Below, one piece after another: positions 13,199 to 28,657 of a stretch of 64,000 nucleotides of DNA. Source of the stretch: Erysipelotrichaceae bacterium. Lineage in GTDB: Bacteria > Bacillota_I > Bacilli_A > Erysipelotrichales > Coprobacillaceae. A program made the translations under genes and the position numbers. Location of the stretch: NCBI GenBank assembly GCA_021770925.1, contig JAETPY010000004.1, positions 1 through 64,000 on the forward strand, in the 5' to 3' direction. Below the pieces are notes generated by a model. That model ran no database searches. It was given only the letters and a program-made list of their open reading frames with translations, and had not been told where the DNA came from. Numbering within the stretch: the stretch's first letter is position 1; each line of letters starts with the position of its first letter.

Positions 13199-13333
13199 TC
13201 TTACTACATTATTTTAAATAAAACAATTATCTAGATTTATCAATCTCTTTATTAATCATGTATAATTTTATATTTTAAATTAATATTTATCGCTACATAT
13301 ATTAATTTTCACTGAAACATTAATTATTTTAGA

Positions 13334-13433
13334 ACAATTCCTCATTAGATAAGGTGCAACTATTACGAAAATAACATCTAAGAAACGCCAGATTGATAAT
13401 AATGTGACAATTCCTCATTAGATAAGGTGCAAC
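13334..13433 (-). CRISPR. Minimal CRISPR array: two repeats, one 46-bp spacer
   Basis: Two identical 27-base copies lie at 13334-13360 and 13407-13433, 73 bases apart. Plus-strand key parts are ACAATTCC at the start and AAGGTGCAAC at the end. On the minus strand each copy begins GTTGCACCTT and ends GGAATTGT. Type III repeats of this style usually end in ...ATTGAAAC (the crRNA 5' handle); here the next bases are TCT and CAC, so the handle end is degenerate or the repeat is unusually short. It sits about 270 bases downstream of cas6 in the direction of transcription. The orientation is inferred from that position and from the GTTGC start. Confidence 0.8.
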
Positions 13434-13704: not shown

Positions 13705-14436
13705 TTACTCTACAATCTCAAACATACCAAATCCTTGGGAAGTTTTTTCTCCTAAACCAATATAATATAAAAATTCTAAATATTCTTTTTTTCCTTGTAA
13801 CATATATATACCATGCCAGGCTGTTATATACGTATTTTTATAATTAGTTACATATTTATCTTTTGCGCTAATACTTATTAATTTAATTTTAATATTATCA
13901 GGAACTATTCCATAATATGCTTCATATTTCTTTTTAAACAAATTATTTATCCTATCTAAAAAATCTTTTTCTAAAGGATTAAAATAGTGAGTATGTTTTT
14001 TATTTTCTTCAAGAATAGTTTCTCTTACTACTATTGGTGATAAAAGCCTTATTTTTATTTGTTCTTTGTTATTGTAGAGAAATACTTGATATTTATTTAA
14101 AATTATAGTTTGGTTTTGAAGCTTGAAATTAGTGTATTTATTTAAAATATTTAAAAGATGATAATCAAATTTGGTATCTATACCTGCAATGTCTAAAATA
14201 AGTGTATTTTCAAATGTTATTTCATGATTTTTTATTATTTGTTTAGGTGAATATAGTTTGCTAAATGTAAATAATTTATACTTCTTTGTTTTTCCATAAC
14301 CGATGTTGTGAAGAAACTGGGCATATTCTTTATTTTCTTTAGCGAATAAAAGATAGATAAATCTTTGAATATCTTCATGATAATTTAGTTTTAATTTTAA
14401 TGGTTTATTTAGCTTAAAATATAATTTATATCTCAT
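13705..14436 (-). CDS. cas6: CRISPR repeat endoribonuclease Cas6
   Basis: The 243-residue RAMP-fold protein has an N-terminal ferredoxin-like half (about 1-120) and a C-terminal half ending GLGEKTSQGFGMFEIVE, the glycine-rich loop that marks Cas6. It cuts pre-crRNA within repeats to make the crRNA 5' handle. A histidine in the N-terminal part (about residue 20 or 43) could be catalytic but cannot be assigned with certainty. It is the last cas gene, 10 bases after cas2. Unlike some RT-Cas1 systems, Cas6 is a separate protein rather than fused to RT-Cas1. Confidence 0.9.
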   Translation of the reverse strand: MRYKLYFKLNKPLKLKLNYHEDIQRFIYLLFAKENKEYAQFLHNIGYGKTKKYKLFTFSKLYSPKQIIKNHEITFENTLILDIAGIDTKFDYHLLNILNKYTNFKLQNQTIILNKYQVFLYNNKEQIKIRLLSPIVVRETILEENKKHTHYFNPLEKDFLDRINNLFKKKYEAYYGIVPDNIKIKLISISAKDKYVTNYKNTYITAWHGIYMLQGKKEYLEFLYYIGLGEKTSQGFGMFEIVE

Positions 14437-14446
14437 ACAATTCCTT

Positions 14447-14707
14447 TCATATTATATTTGTATTTTTCTTTGTCATTCCTATTTGTTCCTTAGAAATATA
14501 TTTTAATGATTCTAATTCATAAAAACAGATACTATCATAACTAACATCAATAACTTTATCTAAATCTTTTTTCAATTTATTTAACTTACTTTCTGTAATA
14601 TAACCTTCAAATACTGAATTTTGAACTGCAAACAAGTATTTCTTAAATACTTTTCTAACTTTACCTACTCTTTTATGATGGACATCATATACTGCAATAA
14701 TATACAT
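14447..14707 (-). CDS. cas2: CRISPR adaptation protein Cas2
   Basis: The 86-residue protein starts MYIIAVYDVHHKRVGKVRKV, with the conserved Asp after the first beta strand and the basic helix of the Cas2 ferredoxin fold; VFEGYITESKL matches the middle of the family. It dimerises and bridges two Cas1 dimers during spacer integration. It starts 5 bases after the RT-Cas1 stop, so the two products are co-produced. Confidence 0.92.
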   Translation of the reverse strand: MYIIAVYDVHHKRVGKVRKVFKKYLFAVQNSVFEGYITESKLNKLKKDLDKVIDVSYDSICFYELESLKYISKEQIGMTKKNTNII

Positions 14708-14712
14708 AATAA

Positions 14713-16608
14713 TTACATCCTATATTTAAATGGTTCATATTCTTCATTGTATTTGAAATATCTTAAAAGTTTTAATACTTCCTGTTGTAATATTTCTTGA
14801 TAACTTGCTTTTTTATTATTTATTGTTATTGTACTGTTAAGTTTTTTATTTAGCTGTTCAATAAAGATATATTTGCCTTCTTTATTGAGAAATACACCAT
14901 TATTTCTTTTTTCAAAATGAACTTTAGCATCAATAATTCTTTTATTTATTAATGAAAATATTACTTTATCAACAAGAACAGGTTTAATTATTTCTGAGAT
15001 ATCAAGATTTAGATTTTCATATCTCCGTGTTGCTGAATGTAAATAAGAAATTCTGATATCTAATTTTGTTTTATATATTTCATTAGCTATTTTTTGATAT
15101 ATTAAAGTATTCCCAAAACTAATCATTGCATTGAGTGCATCTTTTGGTGGTCTTCTAGTTCTTTTAGTGAATTTAAATTCTTGATTATTGAGAATTATAT
15201 TATAACTACTGTAATATAATTCTCTCATCCTTGCTTCTTGTAATAATAATATTTCTAATGTATTAGCTGTTTTCATTTCTTGTTTACATATCTTTAAATC
15301 ATCAATTATTTTATCTAACTGAATATCATCATTACGTTTATTATAATATTTCAGATTTGTAATAATATTTGCAGTTCCACTATCAATAATTTTTTTAGCT
15401 AATTCTAATCTTTTTGATTTATCAATATAATTTTCAACTTGTTTTATTAAAATTGAAGCTGATTTGTGATGATTGACAGGGATAAAAGAACCAATATAAT
15501 AATCATATTGATCAAATAATGAAACTTTTATATTATTTTGATTTAAAGTATTAAAAAAGTTACTAGAAAAGATTATTTGTGAATATATATTAATATGTTC
15601 TGTTACTTCTGTTGGAATTTCAACTTTTTGATTTTCGTTTTCAAATAAAATTGAATAATCTTTTTTAGTAAGAATTCCATCATTAATAATATGATATTCA
15701 TTATCTTCTTTCCTTATTGCTGATTTATGCCAATAGTTATATTTAACTTTAGTTTCTTGTTTATTCTTCTTAGCTTTAACAATATTATCTTCTTTAATAA
15801 AATTGTATCCTAACATTTGTTTTGTTGAAAAATGAGTAATTGATGTTTTATTTTGATTTATTTCTAATTTATATTTATCTTTTAAACATCTAGATATATT
15901 ATTTATTAAGGTTACACCTTCGTCTTTATTAGTAATAAAAATATAAATATTATCACAGTAGCGAATATAGTTATATTTGATATATTGTTTATCTAAATTC
16001 ATTAAATAAAGATTACTAATTACTGGACTTATTGAAGAACCAGTAATTAGTCCTTTATTTTTTCTTTTAATTTTTCCATCTTTTTGAATCAGACAGCTTT
16101 GGTATTTCATAATTAAAGATACTAAAACTTTATCATCAAGTACATCAAATAATATCTTTGATAAAAGACCATGATCTATATTCTCAAAATATTTTTTAAT
16201 ATCTATTTCAACAATATATTCATGACCTTCCTCAATTAATTCTATTCCTTTTCTAATTACGTCTATCGTCCCTTTTCCTTTACGAAAACTATAATTATTA
16301 TCAATTAATAAACAATCTAATTTATCTTGTAATATTAATGATATTGCTTTTTGAATAAAGTTATCAATAATAGTAAACTTATATATCTCCCTTACCTTTC
16401 CTTTTTTAGAAAGCAGTTCATATATCTGAACAATATTTGGTTCATATGTACCTAAAATAAGCTGATTTTCAATATCATTCCAATTAAGAATTAGATATTC
16501 TTTCAACTGTGATAACATTATTCCATCTATTCCACTAGAATAATTTCGCTTCATTAACTCTAAATAAGCTTTTTCTAAATTATTTTTACTTAATATTTCT
16601 TTTAACAT
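14713..16608 (-). CDS. cas1: Reverse transcriptase-Cas1 fusion (RT box reads YCDN)
   Basis: This is a 631-residue fusion from the ATG at 16608, which lies just after the upstream stop; an in-frame ATG at 16641 would overlap that gene. Residues about 10-290 are a group II intron-type RT: motif A is EIDIKKYFENIDH (Asp about 136), followed by the GSSISPVISN block, then YCDN at about 217-220 where YADD is normal. Residues about 330-631 are Cas1 with all metal ligands: Glu about 458 (LLQEARMRELYY), His about 524 (SYLHSATRR) and Glu about 539 (LDISEIIKPVLVDK). RT-Cas1 proteins let type III systems take spacers from RNA. The second catalytic Asp of the RT is replaced by Asn (codon 15949-15951), so cDNA synthesis may be impaired; the Cas1 part looks active. 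Confidence 0.92.
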   Translation of the reverse strand: MLKEILSKNNLEKAYLELMKRNYSSGIDGIMLSQLKEYLILNWNDIENQLILGTYEPNIVQIYELLSKKGKVREIYKFTIIDNFIQKAISLILQDKLDCLLIDNNYSFRKGKGTIDVIRKGIELIEEGHEYIVEIDIKKYFENIDHGLLSKILFDVLDDKVLVSLIMKYQSCLIQKDGKIKRKNKGLITGSSISPVISNLYLMNLDKQYIKYNYIRYCDNIYIFITNKDEGVTLINNISRCLKDKYKLEINQNKTSITHFSTKQMLGYNFIKEDNIVKAKKNKQETKVKYNYWHKSAIRKEDNEYHIINDGILTKKDYSILFENENQKVEIPTEVTEHINIYSQIIFSSNFFNTLNQNNIKVSLFDQYDYYIGSFIPVNHHKSASILIKQVENYIDKSKRLELAKKIIDSGTANIITNLKYYNKRNDDIQLDKIIDDLKICKQEMKTANTLEILLLQEARMRELYYSSYNIILNNQEFKFTKRTRRPPKDALNAMISFGNTLIYQKIANEIYKTKLDIRISYLHSATRRYENLNLDISEIIKPVLVDKVIFSLINKRIIDAKVHFEKRNNGVFLNKEGKYIFIEQLNKKLNSTITINNKKASYQEILQQEVLKLLRYFKYNEEYEPFKYRM

Positions 16609-16609
16609 G

Positions 16610-18781
16610 CTACCTATTATATTTTCGTTTAATCCAGCCATAAATACACCCGCTAATTATAATTGTGATAATAGTTATTCCTAATGTAAAACCATATTTA
16701 CAAATATCTATTTCAAATATTTTGTCAATTAAACCATTTGCACTACGATCAATTGAAAGTGTATCATAAATATATGTTAAAATTACTATCAATAATGAAA
16801 TAGATGCAAAAATTAAAGCATACATATTGAATTTATTATCCTGATTAGCATTAGTTCCAGTATATAAACCATCTAATTGTTCTTTTAACTCTCTTTTTTC
16901 TTCATCTATATACATTGCTTTTGTAAGCATATTATAAATTTCTACCCCTTGTTCTTGTGGAGTTACTTCAAAAAACAATAATTGATTTTGAAAAGAAATA
17001 TATTTTTCTTGTAAATTCAATAAATTGTTAATTGTCACCTGCTTAATCTTTTTATTATCTTTTTCTAAACCATTTGTAAGTAACGTTGCAAAGTTTTGAA
17101 ATAAAATTATTGAAGCCCTTTGCACCAAAGTAAGAATAGCCATATCAACATATAATGTTAAAAAATAATCTATTAAGTATGGTGGGCAATCATTTGTAGC
17201 AATAGCAACAAATGAATGATGGGTAATACCATAAACAGTTCCCCAATCGATCCATCTTGTATATAAATCACGCTCTAAAAGCCTTTGTACATCATGTATT
17301 GATTGACAGCTGCTGTCTCCAGGATCAATATATATAATTGAATACAAATTTTTAGCCGCTTTGTCATTGATTTGATATTCATATTTATTGTTAGCATAGA
17401 ACTTTTTATCATCAGATAATACAAATTGACCATCTTTTTCTACGTATTTAGTATTGATGCTATTTATAATCTGACTAGAACGGATGAAACTGCATACAAA
17501 CATTCGATCATCTAAAACTGGTTCAATGAAATATATGTCTTCTTTACACTTTTGATAATTTGAAGTTAGTATATTATCATGAGACTTTGGATAAGTTAAT
17601 AAATCTTTAATTGGATTAAGAATCTTTGTAAAACTTATATTACTGGTTTGTTCCTTTTTAATATCATCATATAGTGAACATAAATCATCAAATAAAGGAT
17701 TTAGTTTACTATCATTACCAAAATCAATTTTCCAATAAAATGAGCATGGATTAGATTTCATTGTTAAATTTGGTGCTGAAATTCTTCTTACATATTCGTT
17801 AATTAATTTTATATCTTTAATATCATTATAATCATGATTTTCTAATTCGAAAATCATTACTGCTACATCTGAATTAAATACTTTTAATCGAATTGCATTT
17901 AATATTAAAGAAAATTCTTTTGGTTTACTTTCATCCCCTATCCCAATTTGAATAATTAATTTAGCTTTTTCATGAGTTTCTTTTGGGCTAAATGAATAGT
18001 TAGTAACTATTGGATTGTTTTCTAAATCACAATCATCATCAAAACCATAAATAGCTTGTAAAGGTGCACTATTAAAATATTGCATAGTATTATAATGCAG
18101 CTTAAATTCTTCTAATTTCTTATCTTCATCATCATTAACATATTTATAATTACTTAAATCTTTACTTTTTAAATTTGTATTTTCCCAATATTCAGTATTT
18201 AAAATTCCTTTTTTATCAGCTGTTCCATTAAGAAACTCACTTGTTTTATATTTTTTAAAATAATTTTTCTTATCTTTTTTTAAAGGATTAAAAACAATTC
18301 TAAATGGAAATAAAAATGTATGATAGCTATATACCTCATTATTATTTTTTTTGCTGTTATTACTAGAAACTTCTTTTACACAATACCATTTTGATATTTT
18401 ACCTTCTAAAAATCTTCCTCTTAAATCTATTTCTTCTCTTTTATTTTTATTAATAGATATATTGCATAATTCATTAATATGTGTAAGTTTATCATTTACT
18501 TTAGTAATACTTCCCTTTTTAAATAAACTATCACTAAACGTATTAATCGTATTTAATTTTTCATGATAATATTTGGTAATCTCATTTAAATAATCCTCAT
18601 AACTTTTTACATCGTTTACATATATATTATATTCTATATTGTCTTCACAAATTAAAATATTACATATTTTCTCTAGACTATCATCATCTTTAATAAACGA
18701 TTTATTCTCCCATGTATCATTTTCTATATAATGAAAATAAATATTTATTTTTTCAGTAAATTCTATATACACTTTCTTCAT
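16610..18781 (-). CDS. CorA-like membrane protein, candidate type III CRISPR effector
   Basis: The 723-residue protein has a large soluble part with no motif I can name. A conserved-looking core near residues 520-570 (WGTVYGITHHSFVAI, then LTLVQRASIILF) precedes a long amphipathic helix. Two membrane helices at the C-terminus (about 653-674 and 697-716) flank a short loop, and the tail is basic (WIKRKYNR). The order long helix, two helices and basic tail resembles CorA channels, but the GMN motif is absent. CorA-like proteins are known partners of type III-B systems that signal with cyclic oligoadenylate or SAM-AMP. Its place inside the operon, 8 bases after cmr6 and adjoining RT-cas1, supports an effector role. 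The ligand is unknown. Confidence 0.65.
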   Translation of the reverse strand: MKKVYIEFTEKINIYFHYIENDTWENKSFIKDDDSLEKICNILICEDNIEYNIYVNDVKSYEDYLNEITKYYHEKLNTINTFSDSLFKKGSITKVNDKLTHINELCNISINKNKREEIDLRGRFLEGKISKWYCVKEVSSNNSKKNNNEVYSYHTFLFPFRIVFNPLKKDKKNYFKKYKTSEFLNGTADKKGILNTEYWENTNLKSKDLSNYKYVNDDEDKKLEEFKLHYNTMQYFNSAPLQAIYGFDDDCDLENNPIVTNYSFSPKETHEKAKLIIQIGIGDESKPKEFSLILNAIRLKVFNSDVAVMIFELENHDYNDIKDIKLINEYVRRISAPNLTMKSNPCSFYWKIDFGNDSKLNPLFDDLCSLYDDIKKEQTSNISFTKILNPIKDLLTYPKSHDNILTSNYQKCKEDIYFIEPVLDDRMFVCSFIRSSQIINSINTKYVEKDGQFVLSDDKKFYANNKYEYQINDKAAKNLYSIIYIDPGDSSCQSIHDVQRLLERDLYTRWIDWGTVYGITHHSFVAIATNDCPPYLIDYFLTLYVDMAILTLVQRASIILFQNFATLLTNGLEKDNKKIKQVTINNLLNLQEKYISFQNQLLFFEVTPQEQGVEIYNMLTKAMYIDEEKRELKEQLDGLYTGTNANQDNKFNMYALIFASISLLIVILTYIYDTLSIDRSANGLIDKIFEIDICKYGFTLGITIITIIISGCIYGWIKRKYNR

Positions 18782-18789
18782 AAAATCAC

Positions 18790-19617
18790 CTATTCTACTA
18801 AATATCCATAACCAACATTTGTTTTAGCGCCAATGCCAAAATCTTTTATAATCTCTTTAAACAAATTTATTTTATCATTCTTTTTTATAATATGCGTTTT
18901 TTTACCATCAACTTCTATTATAGAATCATTTAAGATAAAATTAAATTTTATCTTAGTACCTGGAGCTAGTCGTAACATTGTAATAACATTAACTTCACCT
19001 AAAGTTAAAAGTCTTTCATTTTGATGATGGGGTGCTAAATGATCTAATTTTAAGATTTTCTTGTTATTATAATCACTAACAAATGAATCAATAAATATAT
19101 CAGTCCCTGGAGTATCATTATCATTACCAAAAATAGCTGTTTTAATTTTCTTTACAAGTTCTTCTTTTTTATTATTATCAATATCTTTAATATTTAGCTT
19201 ATCTAAAATGTAATCATGATATTTAAAAACACTTGCAAGTTTACCTTTTAATGAAGAACCTGGAATATATGGCAATCCTGTTACATAATCAAAATTGAAC
19301 CCTAGCGATATTTCACCTTTGATATTAGCCTGATGACTATTACCAATTCCAATTAATAAACCTGGATATTCAACTGCCATTTCAAATGATAAAAGTATGT
19401 CTTGAAGAGGTTGTAAAAATGATGACTCATGATATTGGTGATTTGTAATATATATATTATTTTCATCTATTATATCTGTTATTTTTTTGTTTCCAATCTT
19501 AATCTTTTCACTAATTTTTTCTTCATTATTACTTTTTTGAATAGATTTATTATCTATATTTTTCAAAAAATCATAATATGTTTTATTGAAAAAATAGTTC
19601 ATGTTTGAAATAGTCAT
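18790..19617 (-). CDS. cmr6: Type III-B RAMP protein Cmr6 (Cas7 group)
   Basis: The protein carries the Cmr6 signature: LLIGIGNSHQANIKGEISLG, then TGLPYIPGSSLKGKLASVF near residues 115-150, where the GSSLKG loop is typical of Cas7-like subunits. The C-terminus FGIGAKTNVGYGYLVE is the glycine-rich loop. It caps the Cmr backbone at the crRNA 3' side. The ATG at 19617, one base after the cmr5 stop (TAAaATG), is preferred over in-frame starts further upstream because it is correctly spaced from AAGGGA. This gives 275 residues. Confidence 0.88.
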   Translation of the reverse strand: MTISNMNYFFNKTYYDFLKNIDNKSIQKSNNEEKISEKIKIGNKKITDIIDENNIYITNHQYHESSFLQPLQDILLSFEMAVEYPGLLIGIGNSHQANIKGEISLGFNFDYVTGLPYIPGSSLKGKLASVFKYHDYILDKLNIKDIDNNKKEELVKKIKTAIFGNDNDTPGTDIFIDSFVSDYNNKKILKLDHLAPHHQNERLLTLGEVNVITMLRLAPGTKIKFNFILNDSIIEVDGKKTHIIKKNDKINLFKEIIKDFGIGAKTNVGYGYLVE

Positions 19618-19618
19618 T

Positions 19619-20035
19619 TTAATCATTCCCTTCATTTTTAGAAGTTTCGTTCTTAGATATTTCTTCTTCAAACAGATTAAGTGTCAGCTTAATTGCAATC
19701 GCAGCATCTAATACTTCTGGCTTTATATTTCCATTATCTTTTGCATACTCAAATAAAGCATATTTTTTTATTTCATTATATTTTTCTTCACTACCTTTAT
19801 CTTTTTTTATAATATAATAAATCAGTTTCATTAATTCTTGACGCTTTACATCGGAACTGCCCTTATCACTAAAAAAAGCAATCGCTGATAACAAACTTCC
19901 CATACTAACAGCCGCCCCAAAGGAAGTGATTTGTGCTTGATAATTTCCTTGTAATTTATCATCTTTAATAAGTTCAGAATTTTTTACAGCTTCATATGCA
20001 ATCGATAAATATCTATTTATTCTACTTTTTGCCAT
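19619..20035 (-). CDS. cmr5: Type III-B small subunit Cmr5 (Cas11)
   Basis: The 138-residue helical protein (MAKSRINRYLSIAYEAVKN) contains the QAQITSFGAAVSMGSLLSAIAFF stretch in two parts, near residues 35-60, typical of Cmr5. It forms the inner filament of the complex. The start at 20035 is inside the end of cmr4 and is preceded by GGTGGTGAT; earlier ATGs are too close to that site. It has an acidic, Asn-rich tail. Confidence 0.85.
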   Translation of the reverse strand: MAKSRINRYLSIAYEAVKNSELIKDDKLQGNYQAQITSFGAAVSMGSLLSAIAFFSDKGSSDVKRQELMKLIYYIIKKDKGSEEKYNEIKKYALFEYAKDNGNIKPEVLDAAIAIKLTLNLFEEEISKNETSKNEGND

Positions 20036-20849
20036 TATCATCACCACCTTCTTTAAATACTGTTACTTTAGTAAGTCCATAACCAATTGAGGCATTACCA
20101 CCAAACTGAACAATTTTACCATTAACAGCATTATTGAATGTATTAAGTAATTCATCATCTTCTTCACAACTTACACAAACAAAGAAAAGGGAATGATGAG
20201 GAACATATTCTTCATACCAGATATTTTGAGAAATACCATCTTTTAAAACATTTCTTGCAACAACTGGTAATGAAATATCTTTTATTTTATCATGAGGCAT
20301 AATAACGAGGTTATCTGCTGTATTAGAAGTAATTTTCTTAAATAATTTTTTGATTTCATTATCTTCTAAATTATCTTCAATTTTTATTTCTTCTACTATA
20401 ATTTCATTATTAGCAGCTTTATAAGATTTATCTTCGTCTAAGTTATCTATATTTAAACTGTATTTCACTTTCATAACTTCACACATTTCAATAAATCTAT
20501 CCAACATCTTTTTAGTCGTAACCAATGAATATGGTGCATTACCTTTTTCATTACGCATTGTCAAACCTAAACATTCTCCACTATAAAATTTTAATTTACC
20601 AGGTTTCTTTTTTTCATCTTTGTTTTGTTCAATTGGTTCGGAACCAAAAATATCTATTTCAATTTTTTTATCAATTTTATTATTTTGGATGAATTCTCTA
20701 AAAGCTCCTTTTATTCCTGATGAATTAATAATTGGATAATTAGTAAGTGGATCTTTTTCCACCTCATTATCAATAATATTATAATTAATATCTCCATTTC
20801 CTACATGTAAATTAGTAATTGGTTCTAATATGTATACAATATTCTTCAT
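20022..20849 (-). CDS. cmr4: Type III-B backbone protein Cmr4 (Cas7)
   Basis: The 275-residue protein starts MKNIVYILEPITNLHVGNGD, and NYPIINSSGIKGAFREFI near residue 40 is the classical Cmr4 block. The C-terminal IVQFGGNASIGYGLTKV is the glycine-rich loop. Cmr4 repeats along the crRNA and supplies the Asp that cuts target RNA every six bases; Asp 20 or nearby (GNGD) is the candidate. Its ATG overlaps the cmr3 stop by one base. Confidence 0.9.
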   Translation of the reverse strand: MKNIVYILEPITNLHVGNGDINYNIIDNEVEKDPLTNYPIINSSGIKGAFREFIQNNKIDKKIEIDIFGSEPIEQNKDEKKKPGKLKFYSGECLGLTMRNEKGNAPYSLVTTKKMLDRFIEMCEVMKVKYSLNIDNLDEDKSYKAANNEIIVEEIKIEDNLEDNEIKKLFKKITSNTADNLVIMPHDKIKDISLPVVARNVLKDGISQNIWYEEYVPHHSLFFVCVSCEEDDELLNTFNNAVNGKIVQFGGNASIGYGLTKVTVFKEGGDDNGKK

Positions 20850-21955
20850 TACTTATCTCCTCCTATTTTTATAATTTGATTAAAACCGATATTTTTTAAA
20901 TTTTTATTTTCAAACAATTGTTCAAAATCATTCTTTTTTGCTTCATTTACAAAGAAAACACTACCAGCACGAATAAAATTATATAATTCACTTTGCTCTA
21001 ACTTATGATAAAAATTATCTTTATCATAATTAGTTTTTAAACATCTAAAATTTCTTGTTTCTGACCAAATCAGATCACAACATATATTTAATCTATTTGC
21101 ATCTTCACAAGCTAAATCTGATAAAGCATAATAATAGACATTATCATCAAGCTTTAAGGCCTCTTTTATTTTTTCTTCCAACTTATTATTTTCTTGATAC
21201 ATAGTTAATTTAAATGCTGATTTTTCTGCACCCAGATAAACAACATCTGTTATTTCACCATTGAAATTTAAATTTGTATCATCAAGCATCACATAAAAAC
21301 ATAACTTATAATTTTTAAAAAACTTGTATTCTTTTTTAAAGAAACCATCTTCATCTAGAGATCGATTAATTCCTACTTTTACATGTGATTCAAAAATTTT
21401 ACTATTTTTAATAATTTCTAAATCATCTAAAAGTACGTATGAATCTCGATAATCATCTTCATTTTTTAAAACTACTTCATCAATCAATTTAAAATTTCTT
21501 TCACTACTGCCATCCATTATTTTAATCTTGGCAGTATCTTTCTTTAATCCTCTTAACTTAAGTTTATTATTATCAAAACTACCATTGAAAGGTGTTTTGA
21601 CCAATATCTGTCTTGTTTCATTTTTTAAAAACATCGGACTAATCTTTTTAATAACACCATATTCTAAATTATCATTACATGACATTATAAAACTACTTCT
21701 ACCAATAAATTCTTTTTGCTTCTCAATTTGTTGGGCAGTTAATCCCTGATTACTAAAATTTTTGTTTAACAAATTCATTCTTTTTAAAACAAAATATCTC
21801 ATCATCCCTAATAATGTTGTTTGAGTTGGCAAATTTTCTGATATTACAAAATAATTATTATAAATTCCCTTATTATTCCTAGCAAATCCAAAACTTCTTT
21901 CATTTCCCAGGAAATAATCCTCAATTGGCTCTAATTCTACACAATACTCACTCAT
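20849..21955 (-). CDS. cmr3: Type III-B protein Cmr3 (Cas5 group)
   Basis: The 368-residue protein begins YCVELEPIEDYFLGNERSFG, and the following NLPTQTTLLGMMRYFVLKRM matches the P-S-P-T-x-x-G-x-L-R block of Cmr3. It binds the crRNA 5' handle and contacts Cas10. The gene overlaps both neighbours by one base (TAATG), showing tight coupling of Cas10, Cmr3 and Cmr4 synthesis. Confidence 0.85.
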   Translation of the reverse strand: MSEYCVELEPIEDYFLGNERSFGFARNNKGIYNNYFVISENLPTQTTLLGMMRYFVLKRMNLLNKNFSNQGLTAQQIEKQKEFIGRSSFIMSCNDNLEYGVIKKISPMFLKNETRQILVKTPFNGSFDNNKLKLRGLKKDTAKIKIMDGSSERNFKLIDEVVLKNEDDYRDSYVLLDDLEIIKNSKIFESHVKVGINRSLDEDGFFKKEYKFFKNYKLCFYVMLDDTNLNFNGEITDVVYLGAEKSAFKLTMYQENNKLEEKIKEALKLDDNVYYYALSDLACEDANRLNICCDLIWSETRNFRCLKTNYDKDNFYHKLEQSELYNFIRAGSVFFVNEAKKNDFEQLFENKNLKNIGFNQIIKIGGDK

Positions 21956-23520
21956 TACTCCTGTCCCCTTTTTTCAACTAAAAATTTAGCAAATCTTAGT
22001 ATACTCGATAATTCAGTATTTTTATCTTTATAAGAACCGTTTTCAATTATTGATTTAAAACGTTTATTTTCTTTATCACTTTTAATTTTAATAAACAAAT
22101 TAGTAATATCTTTAATAAATTCCTGATAGTTTTCCTGCATCGGATTACTGTACATATTAATAAAGAAATTTTCTATTTCCTTTTCATTTTTATTATTAGC
22201 TGCTATATCATATAAATCACGATAATTATCTATTAAATAAATTACAGAATTCGTACTATCCTTTATTTGTTTAGATTTCTCATTAGAAATATAATACTTA
22301 TTTATAAAATTTTTAAATTCTTTCAAAGTTTCTGTTTCATTACCAAAATTTAAGAATACTGATAAGCCACTTGCTTTAGTCAAATTGATTGCAATACTAT
22401 CTTTTTTCTTATTATCATTATCTAGTTTCTTTGCTTTATTTAACATTTCTCTAGCTTGATTAAATGATTCATATAAAGGAAATTTCTTATGATTAATTGC
22501 AATTCCAAAAGATATACTAGCTCCTTTATGTTCCAGTTTTTCAAATTTTTGTCTAATCTTTTCACATAAATCCAAAATATTTTCATCATTATTTTTACTT
22601 ATTATTGGAGCTAAAAACAATAAATCGTCACCACCAGCATATATTGTTACCCCACCATATTCCTTAATCAAATCAGCTGATTTAGTCGTATAATCAACAC
22701 AGCTTTTAGAAAATTCTTTTACCTCTTTAATGTCATTACCCATATCATTAAATAATTTTGTCATTCCATCACCATCAGCTTGTACTATTGCAAGATAATT
22801 AGATATTTTATAATCTTTTTTGTTTTCTATTACAGCAATATCATCTACTGTTTTAATAGTATTTTTGTAAATAACCTGTGGTTTAACTTGAGTATTATTT
22901 TCTTTATCATCATTTAAAGTTTTAAAGAATTTTTTGATATATATATTTTTAGCATCTGTTCTATCTTTATCATCAACCTTATCACTTTCTTTAATTTTTA
23001 TTCCATTAAATAAAGTTAAAAAATAGTTTTCTTTTTCCTCATATACATAAGAATTAAACTGCTCAACATTATCTAATATTTCACTTATCTCATTCATAAT
23101 ATTATTAATATTCTTTATTTTGATACAATGAATATTAATATATTCATTAACAAATTTTTCAACTTCATTTTTATCAAAACTTCTTGTTAAAAATTGATTA
23201 CCATCTATTCTAATAAAAGTTCTATATAATAAATCTCTTAACTTTTCTTTTGTATCCTTTATAATCTTATTCATATCTAAATCATTATCAGCAATAAAAA
23301 TAATATGATCAGGATAAGACCCTACTTCTTCACTATCTTTTTCTTCAAAACTTGGTATTAATACATCTCCATTATTCCGTTTTATTTCTACAATTAATTG
23401 TTTAGCGATATATGAAAATATATAGCTGGCAAGCCATAACCCCCCAGGTGTTGAAGTCATACATAATGTTTTAACTATTGGTCCGATTGTTATGCCATAA
23501 TACATTTCATTATCTTTCAT
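21955..23520 (-). CDS. cas10: Type III-B large subunit Cas10 (Cmr2), cyclase-type without HD domain
   Basis: The 521-residue protein begins at the first palm-like part: GITIGPIVKTLCMTSTPGG, then LWLASYIFSYIAK (about residues 10-40), as in Cmr2 after its HD domain. No N-terminal HD nuclease domain is present and none is encoded next door. The second palm has QADGDGMTKLF (about 247-257) and GGDD at about 296-299, with YAGGDDLLFLAP intact. It should therefore make a nucleotide second messenger on target-RNA binding, but probably not cut single-stranded DNA. I saw no Cys-rich zinc finger. It is shorter than usual Cmr2 (700-900 residues). Confidence 0.92.
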   Translation of the reverse strand: MKDNEMYYGITIGPIVKTLCMTSTPGGLWLASYIFSYIAKQLIVEIKRNNGDVLIPSFEEKDSEEVGSYPDHIIFIADNDLDMNKIIKDTKEKLRDLLYRTFIRIDGNQFLTRSFDKNEVEKFVNEYINIHCIKIKNINNIMNEISEILDNVEQFNSYVYEEKENYFLTLFNGIKIKESDKVDDKDRTDAKNIYIKKFFKTLNDDKENNTQVKPQVIYKNTIKTVDDIAVIENKKDYKISNYLAIVQADGDGMTKLFNDMGNDIKEVKEFSKSCVDYTTKSADLIKEYGGVTIYAGGDDLLFLAPIISKNNDENILDLCEKIRQKFEKLEHKGASISFGIAINHKKFPLYESFNQAREMLNKAKKLDNDNKKKDSIAINLTKASGLSVFLNFGNETETLKEFKNFINKYYISNEKSKQIKDSTNSVIYLIDNYRDLYDIAANNKNEKEIENFFINMYSNPMQENYQEFIKDITNLFIKIKSDKENKRFKSIIENGSYKDKNTELSSILRFAKFLVEKRGQE

Positions 23521-24925
23521 TTTGATCCTCCTCCAATTTAGTTAAAAAATATTCCCCATCATAATTTATACCTGATTTATTTTTTACATCTAACATATAT
23601 AAAACTTTATTTAATCCAGCAATTTCAAAAAAACTTTCAAAATCAAATTTTTCTGTATCAGGTAATTGTGCTGTAAATTGTATTTTACGTTCTTTTTTTC
23701 TTTTCTTTTCATCTTTATTATATCTTTCGTTAAAAACGATTTTTGGATTAGCATTTTGTAAACTTATTAGAGCATTATTATTTATGATAATATATATTTC
23801 TTTATAATTTTCAGAAACATGGTAATGAAGCGGTGAAGGAAATCTTGATATTTCTTCTTTACCAATTTTACCTTTAACATCAAAGTCTTTCAAAAAAGCT
23901 TTTTTCTCTTTTCCATTTTTATCACGAGGAATAATATCAAATTTATCACGATTTTTTTCGATACATAAACTAAATTGATATAATTGTGCAAATCCTAATA
24001 ATCCTCTTGTATAATAAATTTTATTATCATTTAATGGTTTTTTAAAATCACAATCATCGATAAGTTTTCCATTATCTTTATGTTTCAAATTATTAATATT
24101 ATATCCACTTAATTCTAGCTTTTGTTTCATAGCCTTTTTTTCATTTATAATATTATATCTATTTTGTTTAAAATATTTTTTCATAATTACTGATGGAATA
24201 TATTCATTATTTTGTCTAAGTCCGCTTTTAAGAAAGCGATTATACTCAGCTATTGCATTTAAAGCAACTGCATAATCTGTATTAATCTTATCGTTTTTTT
24301 CTTTATCTAATTCAAGTTTATATACTAAAATATTTTCACTTTTAAAATGATTTATTGCTTTAAGTAAATTATTTTCAATATTATCCTTGTAATCTTGATT
24401 GTTTATTTTACTGACCCTAAAATTTCCATATCCTTTGCTTTGCTGTAAACCAAACGCTGTCAAATCAATTAAAATCGGCAATAATTCCTTAATCCTATTG
24501 GCCAACTCTTGATTAAAGCATGTTATATCAATAATAATTTTAGAATAAAAAGAAGATTTATATTTATATTTATCTTTATTTAAAATATAAACTGCATTCC
24601 CATATCTGAAATCCCTATTCACTTTATTCTCTGCCTTTATTCTCATTTTATAATTCAGTGCATGATATTGGTGTACTTGATCTTGATCAACCAGCCAAGC
24701 TTTATCTTTTAAATCCTTTACAGTCTGTTTCAACATTTTAGCTTCTGAATCTATTTTTTGTTTAGTCCACTTTTTTTCCTCTTTTTCATAAGCAAGCCAA
24801 GATAAAATAAAACGATCTAACTTAGGTTTTAATTCAGTAGCTCTGATTGTTGCTTCATCATCGTCTTGAAAATGAATCATTGGTGTGACTTGCTTTAAAC
24901 TAAATTTTAACTTTATCACATTCAT
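23510..24925 (-). CDS. cmr1: Type III-B RAMP protein, probable Cmr1
   Basis: The 471-residue protein begins LKFSLKQVTPMIHFQ, followed by TIRATELKPKLDRFI, resembling the T-P-x-I and R-x-S/T-x-x-K-x-x-L-R blocks of Cmr1. The GLQQSKGYGNFRVSK loop near residue 168 is a RAMP glycine-rich loop. Cmr1 sits at the 3' end of the crRNA complex. It is the first gene of the operon, behind a strong AGGAGGG site, and overlaps cas10 by 11 bases. The assignment rests on these blocks and gene order; Cmr1 is the least certain of the six Cmr subunits. Confidence 0.75.
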   Translation of the reverse strand: MNVIKLKFSLKQVTPMIHFQDDDEATIRATELKPKLDRFILSWLAYEKEEKKWTKQKIDSEAKMLKQTVKDLKDKAWLVDQDQVHQYHALNYKMRIKAENKVNRDFRYGNAVYILNKDKYKYKSSFYSKIIIDITCFNQELANRIKELLPILIDLTAFGLQQSKGYGNFRVSKINNQDYKDNIENNLLKAINHFKSENILVYKLELDKEKNDKINTDYAVALNAIAEYNRFLKSGLRQNNEYIPSVIMKKYFKQNRYNIINEKKAMKQKLELSGYNINNLKHKDNGKLIDDCDFKKPLNDNKIYYTRGLLGFAQLYQFSLCIEKNRDKFDIIPRDKNGKEKKAFLKDFDVKGKIGKEEISRFPSPLHYHVSENYKEIYIIINNNALISLQNANPKIVFNERYNKDEKKRKKERKIQFTAQLPDTEKFDFESFFEIAGLNKVLYMLDVKNKSGINYDGEYFLTKLEEDQNER

Positions 24926-25039: not shown

Positions 25040-25082
25040 AAAAAAAGAACCTAAACAATGAGCATTTTCATTATTTAAGTCC
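25040..25082 (-). terminator. Terminator of the structured RNA
   Basis: A 15-position stem (12 pairs) between 25047-25061 and 25068-25082 is followed on the minus strand by seven T. It would isolate the RNA from the cas operon 115 bases downstream. Confidence 0.8.
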
Positions 25083-25404
25083 TTGATAATATTTTATTCA
25101 AAATAAAAAGGGATCTATTAAAATCGCCTTTTTATTGGTTCTCATCGCTTATTTCGTCACCTATGCCTGTTAATAAACTCATAATACTTCGAAAAGTATT
25201 ATTAAACGGAGTTAAATAAACTCCCTTATTAACCTCACCTTATGAATTAAAAATTACGGTTCCATAAACAAAATTGTCTAGTAGTCTATTACAGTCTTTA
25301 AAAATCCAGAGCGATGCTCTAACTTGTGGGGAGGGAAGAGCGTTACCGCTCCCCCTTCGTTTTGTGCGAGAGCACATTTGGGATAAAGTGGTTCAACATT
25401 TGAA
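25040..25404 (-). ncRNA. Probable structured non-coding RNA upstream of the cas operon
   Basis: Both strands lack a credible gene, yet the segment is densely structured. Read leftward: a TGTGC/GCACA stem (25363-25376), a GAGCG/CGCTC stem with G and C runs around it (25331-25355), an AGAGC/GCTCT stem (25308-25320), then GTTAATAA/TTATTAAC (25226-25233 with 25169-25176). The last pair encloses two hairpins, one with 6-bp GGAGTT/AACTCC arms (25208-25224) and one with 8-bp arms around a UUCG tetraloop (25182-25201). A perfect 10-bp stem follows (25102-25136), then a terminator (25040-25082). About 55% G+C at 25305-25380 stands out sharply from its surroundings. The UUCG loop and T tail fix the strand as minus. 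I cannot name the family; it does not resemble RNase P RNA, tmRNA or 6S RNA as I know them. Confidence 0.65.
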
Positions 25405-25415
25405 CCACTATTATA
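25388..25415 (-). promoter_or_regulatory. Promoter -10 box with a 21-bp palindrome at the start site
   Basis: TATAAT on the minus strand (25410-25415) is immediately followed by a perfect inverted repeat, arms GTGGTTCAA and TTGAACCAC with a 3-base centre (25388-25408), overlapping the expected start of transcription. The -35 box is poor. The arrangement suggests repression by a dimeric regulator; alternatively the palindrome is the first hairpin of the RNA. Confidence 0.6.
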
Positions 25416-25510
25416 ATAACATATTTGACAAAAAATGGAAGAGTTTTTTTGAAAATAACACAATATGTGTTTAAAAAAATTAATTTAACACCGAAAAATG
25501 TACTTTAGAG

Positions 25511-26716
25511 CTATCTCCAGCTGCTTCCATCTCTCCTTCTCAAGAACTCACCTATCATATAATCAAGATGATCTTGATTATTACTTCTAACCATAAATAC
25601 ATGATTTCCCATTGCTGCGCTTAATGCTTCAGGTACCTCAACATCTAAAACAATGTCATATCCAAACTGATTTCTTAATTGATCATTGTCATATAAATAA
25701 TCAAAGCCGTCACGACGTCCAATATAAGCCACTAAATATTGTTGTTTTAAATCTAAATAACATTTATCATAAATGACCATATCAGCCCAGACTGTATAAA
25801 CATCACTATCATAGCTGAAGTTCATCATATCTGGCATATATGCTCCAGGAGCACGCATATTTACTTCTAGACCTACTAGATCACCTTTTTTCCCCAATCC
25901 TTCTTTGTCAGCATCTAATCTAAAGAATTCAAAATGGAAAAAACGACTTCTAGTATCAAAGGCCTTGACAACCTTTTGTCCTACTTCTTCAATATCAGTT
26001 CCTTTTACAATACGATTTTGAAATGCAGTGTCACAATGATCATTAACATTATCCATAATTGAATTTAACATAATCGTACTATTAGCAATTAAAACATTCT
26101 TTTTAGAATCTGTAATACCATCATAAGTCTCTACATGACCATTTATATATTCTTCCATAATATAAACACGATCATCTTTCGTCGCAAAAAAGTATTCTAA
26201 TTCTTGCTGGTTATTTAATTTATAAGTTGAAGTTGCTCCAACCCCATTATCAGGTTTAACAACTACAGGATACCCAACTTTTTCAATAAATGCTAATGCA
26301 TTTTCAAAAGTATCTATTAGACAATATCTAGCAACATTTAAACCAACACTTTCATAAACAGCTTTCATCTTTGATTTATACTTCATCACAGCTAAATTTT
26401 CAAATTTAGTACCACTATTAACATTAAAATCACTTCTAAGTCTAGCATCAGTTTCTAACCAGTACTCATTTTGACTTTCAATAAAATCAATTCTACCATA
26501 CTTACTAATAAAATAAGCAACCGCTTTATAAACCTCATCATAGTTTTCTAAACTATTGACACGATAATATTCGCTTAAACTATCTTTAGTTTCTTTGCTA
26601 ATCTCGTGATAATTAGCATCACCAATTCCTAAAACATTTACACCACGAATTTTTAATCGTGAACAAAAATTATGAAAATATAATGGAAAATGCGGTGAAA
26701 TAAACACTACATTCAT
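25511..26716 (-). CDS. ATP-grasp ligase, copy 2
   Basis: This 401-residue ATP-grasp protein has an N-terminal Rossmann-like domain (FISPHFPLYFHNFCSRL), a nucleotide-binding part with GYPVVVKPDNGVGAT near residue 148 and IMEEYINGHVETYDG near 190, and the metal motif LEVNMRAPGAYMPDMMN near 285. Such enzymes join a carboxylate, activated as acyl phosphate, to an amine or thiol. It is a close paralogue of the ligase two genes upstream in the operon. The substrate is unknown. It could make a small peptide or modified amino acid with the esterase encoded between the two. Confidence 0.85.
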   Translation of the reverse strand: MNVVFISPHFPLYFHNFCSRLKIRGVNVLGIGDANYHEISKETKDSLSEYYRVNSLENYDEVYKAVAYFISKYGRIDFIESQNEYWLETDARLRSDFNVNSGTKFENLAVMKYKSKMKAVYESVGLNVARYCLIDTFENALAFIEKVGYPVVVKPDNGVGATSTYKLNNQQELEYFFATKDDRVYIMEEYINGHVETYDGITDSKKNVLIANSTIMLNSIMDNVNDHCDTAFQNRIVKGTDIEEVGQKVVKAFDTRSRFFHFEFFRLDADKEGLGKKGDLVGLEVNMRAPGAYMPDMMNFSYDSDVYTVWADMVIYDKCYLDLKQQYLVAYIGRRDGFDYLYDNDQLRNQFGYDIVLDVEVPEALSAAMGNHVFMVRSNNQDHLDYMIGEFLRRRDGSSWR

Positions 26717-26729
26717 TTGATATCCCCCT

Positions 26730-27470
26730 TTATAAAATATGATTTAAAAAATATGGTAATTGAATTTGCCACCAGTCCCAATCATGGTTAACATCATTTC
26801 CCCAAAAATCTATCCATGCAGGAATATCTTTATAATCCAATAATTCTTTCATTCTAGTTGTAGAATAAATCATTTCGTCTTCCCAAGCCCCTTGACCGCA
26901 GCATAAAATAATATCGCGATGACGATACATTTCAACATATGGATGATCGTATGACATACCATTTAAAAACTGGATTGGACTATTATTATATAGAATTTCA
27001 TCATGATAATCACCAAAGAACAAGTCGCTGTCATAATAACCGCTTAAACAGATACAGCCTTGAAATAAATCAGGTCTTCTAAACATATAATTTGCTGCAT
27101 GAGTTGCTCCCATTGAACATCCTGCCGTATAAATAAGCTTACCTGTTCCATTGATATCAAAAATTCTTGGCACTAATTCATCAACTACATAATAATACCA
27201 TTGTTCCATCATATAAGTACGATGCTGATTATCGCCACCTTCATCAGACCAGCATTCTCCATCAATACTGTCTAAACAAAACACCTGAATTTGTCCTGAT
27301 TCGATTTTATCAGCAATAACATTAATCATGCCAAAATTTTCAAAATCATAAAAACGCCCATCTTGAGCCGGAAATACTAACAAAGGAATCCCAGTATGAC
27401 CATAAATTTTAAATTCCATATCACGATTCAAACATTTACTATATTCTTTAAAATATTCAACTTTCATCAT
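26730..27470 (-). CDS. Alpha/beta-hydrolase, esterase family
   Basis: The 246-residue protein has the nucleophile elbow GCSMGATHAAN near residue 126, with Ser about 128. The likely catalytic His is in VNHDWDWWQIQLPYFL at the C-terminus, with an acid in the WGNDVNHDW region or upstream. It resembles the putative esterase (Esterase D/Fes-like) family. No signal peptide is present, so it is cytoplasmic. The ATG overlaps the stop of the upstream ATP-grasp gene by one base, and the next ATP-grasp gene starts 13 bases downstream, so all three products are made together. Confidence 0.85.
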   Translation of the reverse strand: MMKVEYFKEYSKCLNRDMEFKIYGHTGIPLLVFPAQDGRFYDFENFGMINVIADKIESGQIQVFCLDSIDGECWSDEGGDNQHRTYMMEQWYYYVVDELVPRIFDINGTGKLIYTAGCSMGATHAANYMFRRPDLFQGCICLSGYYDSDLFFGDYHDEILYNNSPIQFLNGMSYDHPYVEMYRHRDIILCCGQGAWEDEMIYSTTRMKELLDYKDIPAWIDFWGNDVNHDWDWWQIQLPYFLNHIL

Positions 27471-28657
27471 TATGCCTCCTGCAATACCTTATCAATAAAA
27501 TCATTCACTTCTTCTAGAGTCTCAAAACGTGCAGTATATGTATAATTTCCCATTGCTCCTGATAAAATATCCGGCATTCTTTCATTCATCACAAGATGAT
27601 TACCATACATAGCTAAAAGGGCATCATTATTATAATAATACGCTTTACCATCTCGACGTCCACAATACACACAGTGGTAAGGCCTATTTGTATAATAGTC
27701 ACTATGATCATAAACAACCATATCACTATAGATTTTATAAACATCGATATCATTAGCCCAGTTCATCATATCAGGGGTATATCCTCCTGGTGGTCTCATA
27801 TTAACCTCCAAACCAATAAAATCACCTTTATTCCCTAACCCTGGACGATCTTCTAATAATTGGAAAAATTCACAATGGAAAAATCTGCCATTAACAGGAA
27901 ACTCTTTAACAACACTTCTTCCTAATTTTACTAATTCTTCAGGAATTTTTCTCAAAGAATAATAATGCATATCACTATTATCATTTACAACATCCATGAT
28001 TGAATTAGGGAAAACATGTGATGTTTCAAATAATACTTCATGCTCTCTATTAGCTATACCATCATAAGAAATAATCAAACCATTAACAAATTCTTCCATG
28101 ATATATTGAGTTATATGATCAATCTTATAGAAATCCTCTAATTCCTGATCATTATTTAACTTATATGTAGCAGCTGCCCCAACTCCATTATCCGGCTTAA
28201 CTACTACTGGATAGCCTACCTCTGCAATAAATTTTTTCCCATTTTCGATTGTATCCACAAGATGATAACGGGCTGTTTTAACCCCAGCTTTTTGATAATA
28301 AGCTTTCATTCCTGATTTAGTCTTAAATATCTTCGTTACATCTTCTTTCATTCCTGTATTGATATTAAAATCAGTTCTAAGCCTTGCATCTAATTCTAGC
28401 CAATATTCATTATTTGATTCTAACCAATCAATTCTCCCATACTTACTAGCTAAGTATGCTACACAGCGATATACATTTTCATAATTCTCCATATTGTTTA
28501 CATAACAATATTCAGTTACTGAATTTTTTAATTCGTCGCTTATACTTTCCATTGGCATGTCCCCAATTGCCAATACATTTACACCATGGTTCTTCATTCG
28601 ATCACAAAAGTGCCAATATGATTTAGGAAACATTGGTGATATAAATAAAAAGTTCAT
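27470..28657 (-). CDS. ATP-grasp ligase, copy 1
   Basis: The 395-residue protein has the same layout and roughly half identical residues by eye to copy 2: FISPMFPKSYWHFCDRM at the start, GYPVVVKPDNGVGAAAT (about 147), IMEEFVNGLIISYDG (about 187) and LEVNMRPPGGYTPDMMNW (about 282). The Glu-x-Asn-x-Arg metal/ATP motif is intact in both copies, so both should be active. It is the first gene of the operon, behind AAGGAGGGGG and a palindrome-controlled promoter. Retaining two copies around one esterase suggests two successive or alternative ligations. Confidence 0.85.
   Translation of the reverse strand: MNFLFISPMFPKSYWHFCDRMKNHGVNVLAIGDMPMESISDELKNSVTEYCYVNNMENYENVYRCVAYLASKYGRIDWLESNNEYWLELDARLRTDFNINTGMKEDVTKIFKTKSGMKAYYQKAGVKTARYHLVDTIENGKKFIAEVGYPVVVKPDNGVGAAATYKLNNDQELEDFYKIDHITQYIMEEFVNGLIISYDGIANREHEVLFETSHVFPNSIMDVVNDNSDMHYYSLRKIPEELVKLGRSVVKEFPVNGRFFHCEFFQLLEDRPGLGNKGDFIGLEVNMRPPGGYTPDMMNWANDIDVYKIYSDMVVYDHSDYYTNRPYHCVYCGRRDGKAYYYNNDALLAMYGNHLVMNERMPDILSGAMGNYTYTARFETLEEVNDFIDKVLQEA

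Follow-up and report, generated by a model that had tools for sequence, protein, structure and literature searches.

A conserved C-rich small RNA, probably a trans-acting regulator, beside a type III-B cas operon in Thomasclavelia

Unpaired UCCC motifs that pair with the Shine-Dalgarno sequence have been described as a signature of the trans-acting small RNAs of S. aureus, Listeria and B. subtilis (PMC3861533), and RNAIII acts on one mRNA through two C-rich loops (PMC2837412). In the literature searched, no small RNA described for Thomasclavelia, a genus of gut commensals of interest, was found. The window analysed here (the whole stretch of 64,000 nucleotides) contains an intergenic segment which, with a probability of about two in three, encodes a trans-acting C-rich (UCCC) small RNA of about 109 nt that has its own promoter and terminator and blocks the Shine-Dalgarno sequences of its target mRNAs. 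Judged from its sequence, the gene is real, uncatalogued, genus-specific and of a known functional kind, and it is presumably transcribed. As a genus-wide RNA with two invariant anti-Shine-Dalgarno motifs, it would offer a first, tractable example of post-transcriptional regulation in Thomasclavelia, with one concrete predicted target.

The original prediction had described a single RNA of about 365 nt (positions 25040-25408) on the strand of the adjacent cas operon. The dense structure attributed to it is evident: the minus strand of this segment has a folding energy of -107.9 kcal/mol (z -8.0), which was matched by none of 100 shuffles, and the plus strand gives a z of -4.9. The G+C-rich part is likewise present, with 49% G+C at 25300-25408, compared to mostly 20-35% in the surrounding 200-base windows. 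The length, however, was overestimated. Cross-genome alignment places the segment common to all eight homologous loci at 25408-25300, an independent unit of about 109 nt with its own terminator. This unit (25300..25408, minus strand, as are all features of the RNA given below) is composed of four hairpins, the last of which is an intrinsic terminator.

A covariance model of the small RNA finds one copy per genome in eight of the nine members of Thomasclavelia; the exception, G006, lacks the RNA and does keep the ATP-grasp gene. No homologues were detected outside the genus among 316 genomes of the order, and strong blastn matches of the segment in 148 related genomes were confined to the same genus. 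Two weak matches were treated as chance, one (G027) being devoid of the C-rich motifs when read and the other (L067) of the exact motif strings. Phage and plasmid records contained no homologues; a 16-mer of the small RNA occurs in ten viral contigs, none of which fits the covariance model. In line with the original prediction, the RNA matches no Rfam family: a search of the whole window against Rfam (release 15) produced zero matches at the gathering score, and relaxed thresholds gave no credible match at the locus or in seven homologous loci.

Directly upstream of the small RNA stands an extended -10 promoter element, TGTTATTAT (25413..25421), which conforms to TGYTATNAT in all eight genomes and always stands the same short distance before hairpin 1. 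This element may be the promoter proposed for the RNA; a consensus promoter scan of the minus strand found none, and a clear -35 was not recognised. The terminator scan identified two candidates on the minus strand, at 25322-25306 and 25084-25045, where 0.2 would be expected on shuffled sequences. The small RNA ends in the former, hairpin 4 with its T-run (25300..25322); the final one is assigned to the cas side. Sequence comparison shows the conserved unit with its structure, -10 element and terminator, as well as the independence of this unit from cas.

Hairpin 1 (GTGGTTCA..TGAACCAC, 25388..25408) is invariant in sequence apart from its loop, the length of which differs between species; its interpretation as a DNA operator palindrome is disfavoured, as the spacing between the arms varies. 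Hairpin 2 (UGUGC..GCACA, 25363..25376) contains one compensated pair, hairpin 3 (GAAGGGGGAGC..GCUCUUCCCUC, 25331..25358) has one pair that is changed on both sides in four of the eight sequences, and both are paired in 100% of cells. The stem of hairpin 4 differs in sequence between species while its pairing is kept. Compensatory changes in a cross-genome alignment, to which the original prediction had pointed as a check, were indeed found: in the model-fitted alignment of the eight sequences 97.8% of cells pair, and both-side changes occur at four pairs (10 cells), compared to an average of 3.7 on shuffles (0 of 500 as high) and to only 0 to 3 such cells when the pairing partners are slid. 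Given that the structure itself guided the fitting of the alignment, a bias in its favour, and that only eight sequences exist, we consider this covariation to be moderate support. Folds of single sequences are in agreement, with z -5.2 for the small RNA of the window and -6.4 to -7.5 for five relatives; for the 109 nt of the window, hairpins 2 and 4 are rearranged in the fold of minimum energy, whereas the centroid retains all four hairpins.

The longest invariant runs of the RNA, ACUUUAUCCC and UCUUCCCUCCCCACA, are C-rich, partly or wholly unpaired, and identical in eight of eight genomes. They belong to two C-rich motifs, CUUUAUCCC and CUUCCCUCCCCACA, which are invariant across the homologues. 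In the window, motif 1 (ACUUUAUCCCAAA, 25377..25389) is unpaired except for its first base. Motif 2 (UCUUCCCUCCCCACAA, 25324..25339) contributes its 5' half to the 3' arm of hairpin 3, and this partial pairing counts against the proposed function; its CCCACAA is unpaired. A conserved, unpaired UCCC-type motif is therefore present, UUUAUCCC being both unpaired and invariant, and CUCCCCACA is invariant as well. Such invariant C-rich stretches suggest that target genes are switched off by pairing with their ribosome-binding sites.

Invariance of the motifs and of hairpin 1 is also what would be expected of a protein site, and the antisense targets of this RNA are predicted only, such that the C-rich motifs might serve as protein sites rather than as antisense seeds. 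We regard action by protein binding as improbable, however, since no known protein-binding RNA family is matched and the anti-Shine-Dalgarno content of the motifs suits antisense pairing. A short-peptide gene starting at AUGAACCACUUUAUCCC can practically be dismissed: six of the eight sequences share an ATG and the letters MNHFIP, but a ribosome-binding site is absent, the window and G001 have no ATG at this place, and the frames and lengths diverge immediately afterwards. No conserved reading frame was found in the eight sequences of the small RNA.

Upstream of the small RNA in the genus is an ATP-grasp gene (25511..26716, minus strand), the stop codon of which lies about 100 nt before the start of the RNA in the window. 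This gene is part of an operon (25511-28657, minus strand) in which two related ATP-grasp proteins, 51% identical, flank a putative esterase; Halanaerobium and numerous gut Firmicutes have close relatives of the ATP-grasp protein. The small RNA sits behind the esterase/ATP-grasp operon in the relatives checked, even where cas genes are absent. This position raises the alternative that the element is no independent gene and acts in cis only: it would provide the esterase/ATP-grasp operon with its 3' untranslated region and terminator, and might yield a processed 3' fragment. We consider this unlikely, given that the extended -10 element occupies a fixed place before hairpin 1 in eight of eight genomes, that conservation is highest in the unpaired C-rich motifs, for which a terminator has no need, and that the ATP-grasp gene is retained in other genera where the small RNA is missing. 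A separately transcribed small RNA remains the preferred reading.

The remainder of the segment originally assigned to the RNA (25299-25040) is, from the alignment, intergenic spacer outside the conserved unit. The enclosed two-hairpin junction with its UUCG helix (25169..25233, minus strand) does exist in the sequence, as do the other hairpins originally named, but it is not conserved: the nearest relative keeps 13 of its 24 pairs, and the alignment shows mostly gaps in two others. A second conserved block with a terminator-like hairpin at its end (25092..25166, minus strand) is found in only four of the nine genomes. It measures about 65-75 nt (GCATAGGTGACGAAATAAGC..GAACCAATAAAAAGG) and follows the small RNA in these four genomes (the window, L024, L025 and L026) before different genes. 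The block was considered as a repeated element and rejected as such, as the other matches of its terminator, in L031 and L032, represent an ordinary terminator that follows a gene of another kind. The final terminator (25045..25084, minus strand) was identified by the terminator scan and is not part of the small RNA. In L025 and L026 its counterpart, with a similar hairpin, lies directly before cmr1 and about 3.3 kb from the RNA; hence its assignment to the cas side.

Downstream of the small RNA, the window contains a type III-B cas operon (13705-24925, minus strand), beginning with cmr1 (23510..24925, minus strand); in other species, other genes occupy this position. The operon codes for Cmr1-6, Cas10, a CorA-like protein (16610-18781) and a fusion of reverse transcriptase with Cas1 (14713-16641). 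The CRISPR repeat was seen in just two copies (13319-13433), and it (...ACAATTCCTCATTAGATAAGGTGCAAC) forms no repeat family with the small RNA. In two relatives, G003 and G007, the small RNA is separated from cas by genes for a LytTR response regulator and a sensor kinase and by a small gene of 153 aa (147 aa), at 9740-12080 of L025 and the corresponding position of L026; the segment after the small RNA is therefore variable.

Location on the same strand, directly upstream of cmr1, is the argument for one transcript of about 365 nt that would serve as a regulator or accessory RNA of the type III-B operon. The genus-wide distribution makes this very improbable: the small RNA is present in eight of the nine genomes and the type III-B Cas10 in three, and the RNA stays in place where there is no cas. 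Moreover, in two of the three Cas10 genomes the cas operon is about 3.5 kb away, behind other genes; the small RNA has its own terminator; and the portion nearest to cas is not conserved. A cas-specific role is therefore unlikely, and neither regulation of cas nor a defence function, as originally suggested for the RNA, finds support in the co-occurrence. Of the three options then proposed, an unrelated housekeeping RNA fits best inasmuch as the RNA is unrelated to cas, but its features are those of a regulatory rather than a housekeeping RNA. As this case shows, the proximity of an RNA to cas genes says little about its function: the content after the conserved gene changes between species.

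In the mechanism that we propose, transcription of the small RNA would start at an extended -10 promoter of its own and stop at its own terminator, with hairpin 1 capping the 5' end, hairpin 4 terminating, and hairpins 2 and 3 separating the C-rich motifs UUUAUCCC and CUCCCCAC. The motifs would pair with G-rich Shine-Dalgarno regions of target mRNAs and thereby block ribosome binding. We infer translational repression because of the UCCC-motif signature of small RNAs and the two-loop precedent of RNAIII in the literature; the targets are likewise predicted by analysis. The candidate target is an agr-type LytTR response regulator, the leader of which (AGUGGGGAUGGGGAUAAUUAUG) may pair with both motifs simultaneously.

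Targets were sought with sequence patterns, supplemented by binding energies at LytTR genes. Motif 1 alone gave no pattern among targets. The complement of motif 2 occurs near the start codons of rpoA, four LytTR response regulators, one AgrD-like peptide, an aldo/keto reductase and a few others. The rpoA leader is uninformative, since the same motif 2 match is found in G006, which has no small RNA; six genomes of the genus have the same rpoA ribosome-binding site, GTGAGGAGGGA (loci L182, L188, L197, L202, L205 and L253), whether or not the small RNA is present. At L174 (G005:C1:3231700-3232700), a short possible gene, VQLYSFFEWIIEWLYGKK, is followed by an exact 15-nt complement of motif 2, TTGTGGGGAGGGAAG. 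This complement, in a presumed 3' region, was rejected as a target, as it is not conserved in the other genomes of the genus.

Binding energies at ribosome-binding sites were compared between 71 LytTR genes of the genomes with the small RNA and 150 background genes, the latter drawn from ten loci only. As a class, the LytTR genes differ only slightly from the background (p 0.03, or 0.15 once corrected for Shine-Dalgarno strength). The tail of the distribution stands out: with motif 2, seven of the 71 LytTR sites reach -20 kcal/mol or lower, compared to none of the 150 background genes. Three of the seven form one orthologue group (L332 in G000, L334 in G003 and L328 in G007). For the leader of this group, AGUGGGGAUGGGGAUAAUUAUG, simultaneous pairing with both motifs is predicted, with hairpins 2 and 3 still folded; in the three species this two-motif site scores from -15.7 to -18.8 kcal/mol, and none of the 150 background genes is as strong. 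The LytTR hypothesis arose from the same data that were used to score it. The three orthologues are from close relatives, a related T. cocleata gene (L329) is without the site, and the strong predicted LytTR leader sites are not conserved across the whole genus. The excess of the two-part pattern over its reversed form was dismissed as evidence, as the pattern also appears in coding DNA and in G006. We thus present the modelled two-motif pairing as a lead and not as a result. That the small RNA is a dual-motif regulator in Thomasclavelia, clamping one agr-type LytTR leader over the Shine-Dalgarno region with both motifs, is a speculative and rather doubtful extension of the main reading; if true, a single small RNA would set the level of several quorum-sensing systems.

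Among known RNAs, the small RNA most resembles the UCCC-motif small RNAs of Gram-positive bacteria, namely the Rsa family of S. aureus, RsaE/RoxS and Listeria LhrC, with which it shares its small size, intergenic location, terminator hairpin, and unpaired C-rich motifs complementary to the Shine-Dalgarno sequence. It differs from them in its own motifs, four-hairpin layout and genus, its pairing is predicted only, and it matches no Rfam family by sequence or covariance. Like RNAIII of the staphylococcal agr system, it has several C-rich motifs; in RNAIII, two of them can act on a single mRNA (PMC2837412). Unlike RNAIII, it is much shorter, encodes no peptide and, in the window, lies outside any agr locus; its link to agr-type genes is as predicted targets only. 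Dense intergenic structure is shared with raiA, ROOL, 6S and OLE, of which none gave a covariance match; compared to ROOL or OLE the conserved unit is far smaller, and the apparent length of the RNA is due to added spacer.
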